DNA of 64,000 nucleotides. Origin: Alphaproteobacteria bacterium (GTDB lineage Bacteria > Pseudomonadota > Alphaproteobacteria > Micropepsales > Micropepsaceae). Position numbers and translations under genes: made by a program. The notes beneath the pieces were generated by a model. The model had not been told where the DNA came from. It saw only the letters and a list, made by a program, of their open reading frames with translations, and did not search any database. The stretch is from NCBI GenBank assembly GCA_015654635.1, contig JAATGP010000023.1:1-64000 (forward strand), written 5' to 3'. Below, one piece after another: positions 31,141-34,128 of this stretch (positions are counted from its first letter, which is position 1; each line of letters begins with the position of its first letter).

Positions 31141-32031
31141 CTATTCGTCCAGCCATCCCTTGATCAAATGATGCGCGATGGCGATTTTGATCGGGCCTCT
31201 GCGGCCTTCGATTTCGTCGGCCAGAAGCGCGCGGGCCTGGTCTTTGTCGTACCATTCGGCATCGGCGATCTCGGTGGGATCCAGCCGCAGCTCTAGGCTC
31301 TCCACTTCCGCATAACAGCCGATCATCAGCGCCGCCGGAAAGGGCCAGGGCTGGCTGGCAGCATAGCGCACGTTCTTTGCCCGCACCCCGGCCTCCTCGT
31401 AAAGCTCGCGCGCCACGGCTTCTTCGATAGTCTCCCCTGGCTCCATGAACCCGGCGAGGCAGGAATAAAAATCGCCCGACCAGCTGACATTGCGCGCCAG
31501 CAGGCATTTGTCGCCACAGGTGGCGAGCATGATCACCGCCGGATCGGTGCGCGGGAAGTGCTCGGCCTGACAGCGCGGACAGCTGCGCTTGTAGCCCGCT
31601 TCGCCGCTCAGCGTTGCCGCGCCGCAGCGGGCACAAAAGTGGTGACGGCCATGCCAATCGAGCATCGCCTTGGCTTGAGACAGGATGGCGAGGTCCTTGC
31701 GCCGCAAACTGGGCGCCGCCGCCCGCAGCTCGAGAAATTCGCCGTATTGCTTCAGCGCCTCAGGCGCTTCCGCGGTGCCGGAGACATCCAAGGCGAAAAG
31801 CGGCACTTCACCATCCAGCCCCAGGAATACGGAAGCCGCGTCGGGCGCGGCCAGGGCCTTGGCCAGCGCATGCGGCAGTGCCGCTGCCGACAATAAGGGG
31901 GTTCCCGCCACCAACACATTCAGCCGCCACAGCGGCAAAACCCGCGCCGCTTGGTGCTGCTCTGCCAGCCAAGCCATATCGCCCCGCTTGTCAGAGCGGC
32001 GGTCGAGGGGATTTCCGGTGAAGGGGAGCAT
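31141..32031 (-). CDS. nudC: NADH pyrophosphatase / NAD-decapping Nudix enzyme NudC
   Basis: A 296-residue Nudix hydrolase. A four-cysteine zinc ribbon (CARCG and CPRC, about residues 133-155) precedes the Nudix box GFMEPGETIEEAVARELYEE. The NudC-specific SQPWPFP signature follows. The enzyme splits NADH to NMNH and AMP, and removes NAD caps from RNA. I start at the ATG at 32031 (LPFTGNPLDRR); GTG codons at 32037 and 32043 just upstream are alternatives closer to the AAAAAGG site. Confidence 0.93.
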   Translation of the reverse strand: MLPFTGNPLDRRSDKRGDMAWLAEQHQAARVLPLWRLNVLVAGTPLLSAAALPHALAKALAAPDAASVFLGLDGEVPLFALDVSGTAEAPEALKQYGEFLELRAAAPSLRRKDLAILSQAKAMLDWHGRHHFCARCGAATLSGEAGYKRSCPRCQAEHFPRTDPAVIMLATCGDKCLLARNVSWSGDFYSCLAGFMEPGETIEEAVARELYEEAGVRAKNVRYAASQPWPFPAALMIGCYAEVESLELRLDPTEIADAEWYDKDQARALLADEIEGRRGPIKIAIAHHLIKGWLDE

Positions 32032-32104
32032 GGTCACTAACACCTTTTTCCATATGGCTTATCTTCCAGATTCGCCTTCAGCAACGGCAATGTCTATAGA
32101 AAGA

Positions 32105-32190
32105 GTGGGAGCCGGCGGTGGACGGAACGCTCGTGAGCCCGGTCAGGTCCGGAAGGGCGAGTTAACGCCAGCGTGTAAGCGCCGTAACGA
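32105..32190 (+). pseudogene. decayed tandem copy of the SRP RNA gene
   Basis: The first 55 bases match the intact ffs gene downstream almost base for base (GTGGGAGCCGGCGGTGGACG, then CCGGTCAGGTCCGGAAGG). About 20 bases (GCGAGTTAACGCCAGCGTGT) then interrupt the conserved GGAAGG-AAGCAGCC block, and the match resumes as AAGCGCCGTAACGA. The 3' closing strand of the end helix is missing. The RNA could not form the normal hairpin, so this is most likely a dead duplicate. Bases before both copies are also alike (TCTATA), so the duplication included the promoter area. Confidence 0.8.
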
Positions 32191-32255
32191 CATTCAACCA
32201 ACAACTTAGCCCAAAACCCGACTCGCATTCTGGCGAAGGCCGTTCTATATCCGCT

Positions 32256-32351
32256 GTGGGAACCGGCGGTGGACGGAACGCTCGCCAACCCGGTCAGGTC
32301 CGGAAGGAAGCAGCCGTAACGAATCCGGTCTGGGTCATAGCCGGTTCCCAC
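32256..32351 (+). ncRNA. ffs: bacterial small SRP RNA (4.5S RNA)
   Basis: A 96-base RNA gene. The conserved apical core CCGGTCAGGTCCGGAAGGAA-GCAGCCGTAACG is present, with the GGAA tetraloop and the asymmetric loop bound by Ffh. The ends form a perfect 11-bp helix (GTGGGAACCGG with CCGGTTCCCAC). The RNA joins Ffh to make the signal recognition particle, which targets membrane proteins to the translocon. It sits 16 bases before dnaX, a common neighbour. Confidence 0.96.
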
Positions 32352-32367
32352 CTCACACAGAGCGCTT

Positions 32368-34128
32368 ATGGACGACACAGAAGCCCCTTCGCTTGGTTTG
32401 GGACCGGCGCCAACGGCGGCGGCGGCGGGCGGTGCTGACTACAAAGTCCTGGCCCGCAAATACCGCCCCTCCGATTTCACCGGGCTGATCGGTCAGGAAG
32501 CCCTGGTCCGCACCCTGTCGAACGCTTTTGCCACTGGCCGCATTGCCCATGCTTTCATGCTGACTGGCGTGCGCGGGGTCGGCAAAACCACCACCGCGCG
32601 TATTATCGCCAGGGCGCTCAATTGCATCGGCGCGGACGGCAAGGGCAGCGCGCCCACCATCCAGCCATGTGGCGTCTGCGAGCCGTGCCGGGCCATTGCC
32701 GAATCCCGTCACGTCGATGTCCAGGAGATGGACGCCGCCTCCCGCACGGGCATCGACGATGTGCGCGAAATCATCGAAGGCGTGCGCTACGCGCCGGCTT
32801 CGGCCCGCTACAAAGTCTATATCATCGACGAAGTGCACATGCTGTCGAAGCAGGCCTTCAACGGTCTTCTGAAGACGCTGGAAGAACCGCCACCGCATGT
32901 GAAATTCGTCTTCGCCACCACCGAAATCCGCAAAGTGCCGGTGACGGTGCTGTCGCGCTGCCAACGCTTCGACCTGCGCCGTATCGAGACGCCGGAGCTG
33001 GTGGCGCATCTGGCCAATATCGCGGGTCAAGAGAACGTGCGCATCGAAGATGCCGCTTTGGCCCTGGTTGCCCGCGCCGCCGAAGGCTCGGTGCGCGATG
33101 CCCTGTCGCTGCTCGATCAAGCCATCGCCCATGGCACTGAAGAGGTCATCACCGCCGAGATCGTGCGCGGTATGCTGGGGCTGGCCGATCGTGGCCGTGT
33201 GCTCGATCTTTTCGAGACCGTGATGGCGGGCAAGATGCCGGAAGCCTTGACCAGTCTGGGCGAGCTTTACAATCGCGGCGCCGATCCTTTGGCGATCATG
33301 CAAGATCTGCTCGAGACCGTGCATTTCCTCACCCGTGTGAAAGTGGCCCCCGGCGCCGAAGGCTTTTTCGATGGCGCCTCGTCCGAGGCCAAACGCGCCG
33401 CCGAGATGGCGGGCAAGCTTTCCGTGCCGTCGCTCACCCGCGCCTGGACCATGCTGCTGAAAGGCTTGTTCGAGGTGCGCGATGCCGCGCGGCCCGTGCA
33501 AGCTCTCGAAATGGCGCTGATTCGTCTTGCCTATGCCGCCGATCTGCCGCCTACCGACAAGCTGGTGCGCGATCTGATGGAGGGCGCGCCCACAGGACGC
33601 GCCGCGCCAGCACCCTCTGGCCCTTCCGGCGGCGCCCCCCGCATGGCCATGTCGAACAACGAACGCCCGCAAAGCCAAGCTGCCGTCCAGCCGATAGCCC
33701 AAGCTGCTCCCGCGCCGGTGTTTCAGTCTCTCGAAGACCTCGCTGCTTACGCCCATGCCCATGGCGCTCCAGTGCTCAAAGTGCATATCGAAAACGACAT
33801 GCATCTGGTCAGCATCGAGCTAGGCCGTCTGGAATTTCGTCCCGGCTCGCGCGCCCCGCGCACCCTGGCCGCCGATCTTGGCCAGAAGCTGAAGGATTGG
33901 ACCGGCACGCGCTGGGCCGTCACCGTGGTCAGCCAAGGCGGAGCGCCAACGATTGCCGAACAGCGCGTCGCTGCCAAGCAGGCCCGGCACGAGGCGGTAC
34001 TGCAGGAACCGTTGGTGCGCGCCGTGATGGATCGCTTTCCCGGCGCCGAAATCATGGCCGTGCGCGATGTGGTGGCGGAAGACGCGGCCGACACACCCAT
34101 GCCTGATGGCGATACGGACGAAGAATAA
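32368..34128 (+). CDS. dnaX: DNA polymerase III subunits gamma and tau
   Basis: A 586-residue clamp-loader ATPase. Walker A is GVRGVGKTTTARI near residue 70. The zinc-site cysteines are in ALNC and CGVCEPC (about residues 103-109), Walker B is VYIIDEVHML, and the SRC motif is VLSRCQRFDL. A Pro/Ala-rich hinge (about residues 410-455) leads to the C-terminal tau domain. No obvious slippery A-run was noticed, so a frameshifted gamma form is not evident. Confidence 0.96.
   Translation: MDDTEAPSLGLGPAPTAAAAGGADYKVLARKYRPSDFTGLIGQEALVRTLSNAFATGRIAHAFMLTGVRGVGKTTTARIIARALNCIGADGKGSAPTIQPCGVCEPCRAIAESRHVDVQEMDAASRTGIDDVREIIEGVRYAPASARYKVYIIDEVHMLSKQAFNGLLKTLEEPPPHVKFVFATTEIRKVPVTVLSRCQRFDLRRIETPELVAHLANIAGQENVRIEDAALALVARAAEGSVRDALSLLDQAIAHGTEEVITAEIVRGMLGLADRGRVLDLFETVMAGKMPEALTSLGELYNRGADPLAIMQDLLETVHFLTRVKVAPGAEGFFDGASSEAKRAAEMAGKLSVPSLTRAWTMLLKGLFEVRDAARPVQALEMALIRLAYAADLPPTDKLVRDLMEGAPTGRAAPAPSGPSGGAPRMAMSNNERPQSQAAVQPIAQAAPAPVFQSLEDLAAYAHAHGAPVLKVHIENDMHLVSIELGRLEFRPGSRAPRTLAADLGQKLKDWTGTRWAVTVVSQGGAPTIAEQRVAAKQARHEAVLQEPLVRAVMDRFPGAEIMAVRDVVAEDAADTPMPDGDTDEE

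Follow-up and report, generated by a model that had tools for sequence, protein, structure and literature searches.

A hairpin-interrupted half-copy of the SRP RNA gene beside intact ffs is a probable relic of tandem duplication in an alphaproteobacterial genus

Two stretches that resemble ffs, the SRP RNA gene, lie in the same direction between a leftward gene, which we take to encode a NudC-like NUDIX hydrolase, and a gene that is presumably dnaX (DNA polymerase III gamma/tau), and this arrangement raises the question of what the first of them is and how it came to stand beside the second. The window, meaning the whole stretch of DNA that was analysed, is the initial 64 kb of contig 6 in a 3.9 Mb alphaproteobacterial genome assembled in 80 contigs (Table 1). 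In the original prediction the two stretches were described as tandem copies about 150 bases apart, in agreement with the 151 bases that separate their starts, and the coordinates given there were right. The second copy is a full member of the family RF00169 (ffs/4.5S RNA; Bacteria_small_SRP), scoring 56.6 bits against a gathering score of 40, and is intact as predicted, although its end helix, found to be perfect by an inverted-repeat search, has 12 bp rather than 11. Its predicted fold has a z value of -2.53, with 4 of 200 shuffles being equally good.

Table 1. Features at the ffs locus of the window.
Feature	Position	Strand	Remarks
NUDIX hydrolase gene (presumed), neighbour	31141..32043	-	ORF
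Promoter-like boxes of copy 1	32069..32098	+	GATTCGCC 32069-32076, 16-base spacer, TCTATA 32093-32098
Copy 1, 5' half of ffs through GGAAGG of apical loop	32105..32156	+	48/52 identical to 32256-32307
Copy 1 insert, 26 bases replacing AAGCAGC	32157..32182	+	Short imperfect palindrome by eye; boundaries resemble those of congeners' inserts
Copy 1 tail CGTAACGA, remnant of ffs 3' half	32183..32190	+	8/8 identical to 32315-32322
Promoter-like boxes of ffs	32220..32249	+	GACTCGCA 32220-32227, TCTATA 32244-32249
Intact ffs (SRP RNA gene, copy 2)	32256..32351	+	RF00169 match, 12-bp end helix
dnaX (presumed)	32368..34128	+	ORF; relatives by tblastn

The likeness of copy 1 to the intact gene goes well beyond chance, as illustrated by a self-similarity score of 84, where 60 dinucleotide-preserving shuffles of the region upstream gave no score above 23, and a coincidental resemblance is thereby ruled out. 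The approximately 55 matching 5' bases of the earlier description are corrected here to 52 bases, 48 of them identical, plus a tail of 8 bases. Between the two, 26 bases separate GGAAGG from CGTAACGA in copy 1 and 7 in copy 2, so that copy 1 has 19 net extra bases, close to the 20 or so that had been claimed for its core. Past CGTAACGA no clear ffs likeness is seen, and the inverted-repeat search found neither a closing strand nor an end helix for copy 1, just as had been predicted. Furthermore, a search of positions 32020-32380 with RF00169, at E values up to 5, did not report copy 1, which falls below the gathering score, and three further clan matches in this interval all overlap copy 2; copy 1 is therefore excluded as a normal second SRP RNA. 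Within its Ffh-binding core GGTCAGG is present and the AGCAGCC strand is absent. Ffh requires the AGCAGCC strand of SRP RNA, and because this strand is gone the known Ffh site is incomplete. The predicted fold of copy 1 is also no better than that of shuffles (z 0.06). Compared with the RF00169 family, copy 1 has the 5' half and promoter-like boxes, but neither the 3' strand of the apical region nor the closing arm is present, and it cannot act as an SRP RNA of any known type. The RF00169, inverted-repeat and alignment results thus support the central part of the original prediction, namely a tandem duplicate interrupted in the Ffh-binding core. An intron-like insert, removal of which would restore ffs, is ruled out for the window by the lack of AAGCAGC next to the insert, and an assembly fault is unlikely, the same form being found in several assemblies, including a genome that consists of one contig (G027).

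The same arrangement recurs within the genus. ffs was recognised, as an RF00169 match above cut-off, in 62 of 69 genomes, the seven without it being excluded from the counts, and upstream copies were sought by self-comparison of each ffs and by the tail motif CGCC(A/G)TA(A/C)CG. The motif lies upstream of ffs in 11 of the 62 genomes, namely that of the window (G000), G016, G025, G027, G030, G032, G061, G070, G076, G079 and G083, so that a copy or remnant is found at the same place in related genomes. Self-comparison flags nine genomes, eight of these eleven, in which the match stops at ffs position 48-51, and G015; the latter, which has no tail motif, was set aside because its match (score 35; shuffles reach 25 at most) involves the 3' half and lies at about -317. 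G032 and G061 fail self-comparison but contain the tail and a degraded apical stretch, and upstream of ffs in G016 there is the tail only, while in G083 the intact gene is preceded by three copies at spacings of 149-155 bp. The upstream copies of G000, G027, G070, G076, G079 and G083 retain GGTCAGG; the motif reads GGTCCGG in G030 and GGCCAGG in G025, which is the closest genome by DnaX (97.9%) and in which the -10 box of the copy is TCTTTG. An upstream copy is lacking in 51 of the other 61 genomes with ffs, and 47 have neither this form nor the mirror form described below. Outside the genus, a comparison was possible at 47 of 80 named dnaX loci, those with an ffs core and a long enough upstream stretch, and only one of them (L084) scored as a copy, its sequence reading like that of G079. 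The upstream copy of G079 itself carries a second, perfect 26-base palindrome in its 5' half (L049:1351-1376). Weak second RF00169 matches, below cut-off and away from ffs, are seen at G090:C12:22883-22959 (19.0 bits) and G092:C110:6662-6749 (17.7 bits).

A mirror form of the copy stands downstream of ffs in 5 of the 62 genomes (G016, G066, G069, G089 and G092), no more than ten bases from where the RF00169 match ends. Its order is the apical strand (GGTCAGG, preceded by a few bases), the GGAA loop, a hairpin and then the 3' half with the closing arm. The pieces of G016, G069 and G092 pass the comparison with their own ffs, and those of G066 and G089, which fail it, were identified through the tail motif. 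G069 has a longer insert, behind which AGCAGCC is still present. In total, a piece on one side or the other is found in 15 genomes rather than 16, because G016 has remnants on both sides. Another palindrome-like stretch, of the GCGAGCA...TGCGAGAGGG type, follows ffs in G036 and G092 (L033 and L042).

The inserts of G027, G030, G070, G076 and G079 are palindromes of the form (G/A)G(T/C)GAG...CGA(A/G)CGCC, and in the hairpin of these five copies 92.1% of cells are paired and 6 of 19 pairs are changed on both sides. A covariance model built from these copies (R1) also picks up, among the matches listed, hairpins at sites other than ffs in many congeners. A second model (R2) was made from 28 of 38 such hairpins examined, the other ten comprising six that were not tried and four that the trimming pattern missed, and one of the 28 (L209) coming from another family; the discovery of these hairpins leans on the ffs copies, since they were found with R1. 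In the R2 element 94.6% of cells are paired and 14 of 20 pairs are changed on both sides. R2 matches the five upstream inserts, with 56.0, 53.2, 49.8, 42.0 and 33.4 bits for G030, G070, G079, G027 and G076, respectively, and finds the element in at least 44 of the 69 genomes, with up to 44 matches in one genome, this count being a lower bound from 86 candidates scored per genome; G076 gave none in the genome scan, though its insert scores locally as stated. The five inserts are thus members of a dispersed palindromic element, and with upstream copies in 11 and mirror copies in 5 of 62 genomes, both of the terms first applied to copy 1, 'rare' and 'decaying', need to be changed. The insert of the window is not significant against R2 (7.6 bits, E 6.4), nor is that of the nearest copy in G083 (12.7 bits, E 0.29), and R2 gave nothing below E 0.3 over the 64-kb window. 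Elsewhere in the window's genome there is an R2 match at G000:C61:336-386 (49.6 bits) and a weaker one of 31.1 bits. The shorter insert of the window lies at the same site as those of its congeners and has similar boundaries, and on the strength of this placement in the alignment the shorter inserts of the window and G083 may be cut-down elements. Over 385 genomes of the class, R1 gave matches in at least 226 (9 candidates scored per genome), and of three matches from outside the genus that were read, L210 and L221 resemble ordinary ffs and L209 is a palindrome without ffs. This last (L209:560-610, G390), from a different family of the class, is the same kind of palindrome, either through transfer or through contamination.

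The history of the broken halves is illustrated by the closing arms of the intact genes, which by a rough pattern are of the CTTCCAC type in 33 of 62 genomes, TCTC in 17, GTTCCCAC in 7 and other in 5. Four genomes, G016, G066, G069 and G089, combine an intact gene of the CTTCCAC type with a broken 3' half that has TCTCAC close to its end, and when all 62 intact genes are ranked by similarity to this half, the genome's own ffs comes 54th, 62nd, 39th and 61st, respectively. The half of G069 is 0.94 like the intact gene of G070, and the piece of G016 has extra sequence, with a best match of only 0.48; in G092 there is no type difference and its own gene ranks 23rd. For the upstream copies, a comparison from which G079 was left out places the broken 5' half of G070, whose intact gene is of the TCTC type, closest to G071, with its own gene sixth; the own gene ranks first in G025, G030, G076 and G083 and is level with the best in G000 and G027. 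That some broken halves are closer to the ffs of other species than to their own suggests an old tandem pair and reciprocal loss. In a DnaX tree of 57 of the 62 genomes (G084 and G033 were dropped as too short, and G009, G068 and G078 for want of a hit), G013, G069, G070, G071 and G089 group together (100/97), and the simplest account is a tandem pair in the ancestor of these five, of which species keep different members, though exchange between species could also be a source of the foreign halves. The copies are spread over several separate DnaX clades, so that one origin with many losses and several origins both fit, and near neighbours are without an upstream copy in three instances (G071 beside G070, G028 beside G027 and G085 beside G079). 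In the window's own clade the relic looks inherited, because G000, G025, G032 and G061 have similar spacers between the relic and ffs, as in part do G007 and G062, in which no copy is recognised.

Copy 1 is, in our judgement, probably a hairpin-interrupted, non-SRP relic of a tandem duplication, and what recurs across the genus looks like a relic of gene doubling rather than a one-off. The sequence of events would begin with an old tandem pair, copy 1 being the leftover of its second SRP RNA gene; this pair is something we infer, since none of the congeneric genomes gave more than one RF00169 match above cut-off, with 50 candidates scored in each. Entry of a small palindromic element into the apical loop, just past GGAA(G/C)G, is the probable next step, with presumed loss of the AGCAGCC strand and of the part facing the intact gene. 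Such pairs may have resolved either way, leaving a downstream gene with a broken upstream copy, as in the window, or the reverse, and recombination between the direct repeats would then homogenise, multiply or delete the relic. Divergent resolution is a known fate of duplicate genes, which undergo reciprocal loss such that species keep different members; species of this genus likewise appear to keep different members of a pair, but here the gene encodes a structural RNA and a palindrome sits at the same internal site in either member. Several observations count against the relic, including the single above-threshold RF00169 match per genome among the candidates scored, the scatter of the copies over separate DnaX clades, the paired state of the five-copy hairpin, which is kept through two-sided changes, the failure of the window's insert with R2, the first or level rank of the own gene in G000, G025, G027, G030, G076 and G083, the weak matches of the G016 3' half and the absence of a type difference in G092. 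Also against it is the preservation of the promoter-like boxes, which is better than expected of a dead copy.

These boxes are the part of the upstream regions in which the original claim of likeness stands, 12 of 14 positions being identical between copy 1 and ffs (6 of 8 in the -35-like and 6 of 6 in the -10-like box), whereas the claim fails for the spacers, both of 16 bases with 5 identical, and for the next six bases, none of which agree; for the window alone, the comparison of boxes with spacer gives a Fisher p of 0.004. A GACTCGCA-like box lies 35-42 bases upstream of the RF00169 match in 51 of the 62 genomes. When the four diverged copies of G000, G030, G070 and G079 are each set against their own ffs, 51 of 56 box positions agree, as do 24 of 67 spacer positions (Fisher p about 1e-10), a comparison that is biased toward kept boxes, as those of the last three were located by pattern and ffs boxes are constrained anyway. 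A sigma-70 consensus scan found no promoter at the boxes of copy 1, and their assignment accordingly comes from conservation. With such boxes, and with no terminator found by a scan of positions 31950-32450, copy 1 might be a second promoter, at which transcription would start, read through into ffs and yield SRP RNA by processing, the half-copy being ballast. However, the 51 genomes without an upstream copy, 47 of which have no downstream one either, do not bear this out, nor do the downstream pieces, whose sequence opens with the apical strand and includes no promoter, or the altered -10 box of G025, and the location of three sets of boxes by pattern weakens its main support; we consider it fairly unlikely. 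Under the preferred reading as a relic, copy 1 is perhaps still transcribed.

In this genus ffs is not the only intact gene with an interrupted half-copy next to it, as is apparent from the other hairpins. Flanking DNA is repeated on both sides of 9 of the 38 hairpins (above 30 base shuffles), with best stretches of 18 to about 117 bp, the left one ending within 2 bases of the hairpin in eight of the nine, whereas no such repeat above shuffles was found at the other 29. At eight of the nine an intact tRNA-Ala(CGC) is nearby and the element abuts a further, partial copy of its 3' part, which in six of these eight is broken at the anticodon loop (L191, L211, L212, L213, L216 and L217). The ninth, L200 (G087:C31:49180-50230), has a copy of the same 69 bp on either side of the element, which read as the end of a protein gene; part of the adjoining 500 bases matches in 39 of the 69 genomes, many of the listed matches spanning the first 37-95 bases. 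L195 and L199 likewise have the element at tRNA-Ala(CGC) with a partial 3' part, and L213 and L217 contain two hairpins each. It is conceivable, if doubtful, that the palindrome favours loops of structural RNA genes (apical in ffs, anticodon in tRNA-Ala) and arrives with a tandem duplication of its target of tens to more than 100 bases, the essential gene surviving beside an interrupted half-copy. Carried over to ffs, arrival of the palindrome would itself duplicate the flanking DNA and re-form the gene next door, with no need of an ancestral pair. The nine repeated flanks and their close fit to the hairpins favour this, but the 29 hairpins without repeats do not, the halves of G066, G069, G089 and G070 are closer to the genes of other species, which is unexpected after a fresh duplication, and the upstream copies resume CGTAACGA-like ffs sequence after the insert; this origin is therefore very unlikely for copy 1.

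Least likely of all, and hardly to be expected, is a regulatory or decoy RNA in which the apical hairpin and the added palindrome would compete for Ffh or pair with the 3' strand of SRP RNA: the only hints of it, read from sequence, are the kept boxes and the pairing maintained in the hairpins of five congeners, besides the GGTCAGG retained in six upstream copies, and against it stand the incomplete Ffh site, the unremarkable fold of the window's copy, the altered cores of G030 and G025, the 47 genomes with neither form, and the fact that upstream and downstream copies, keeping the 5' and the 3' half, respectively, share only the core around the insert. The tandem-promoter reading outweighs it, given the kept boxes and the lack of a detected terminator versus these degraded cores.

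As a dispersed element, the palindrome invites comparison with REP sequences, which carry GTAG or CGTC tags, include RPEs inside genes and, for the CGTC repeats, occur mostly in alphaproteobacteria (PMC3733652). Like these, the genus element is short, dispersed, present in many copies per genome and also found inside genes (PMC3733652); unlike them, it runs GTGAG...CGAACGC and recurs at one site of the duplicate of an essential RNA gene. No constant REP tag was found in 28 elements with 12 flanking bases (GTAG 5, CTAC 0, CGTC 6, GACG 5). Tandem or palindrome-interrupted bacterial SRP RNA genes were not encountered among the literature matches listed, nor in passages of PMC3733652 and PMC3322544, in a search that covered few subscription papers.

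For annotation, the locus is a warning that ffs-like stretches beside ffs can be relics. If the reading of copy 1 as a relic is true, two copies of an essential RNA gene are sorted anew time and again in this genus, one of them disabled at the same internal site by a small palindrome. Its species would then form a natural series in which to ask both why a second SRP RNA gene fails to persist and by what route tiny palindromes that carry no gene come to lie in structural RNA genes while the cell survives.
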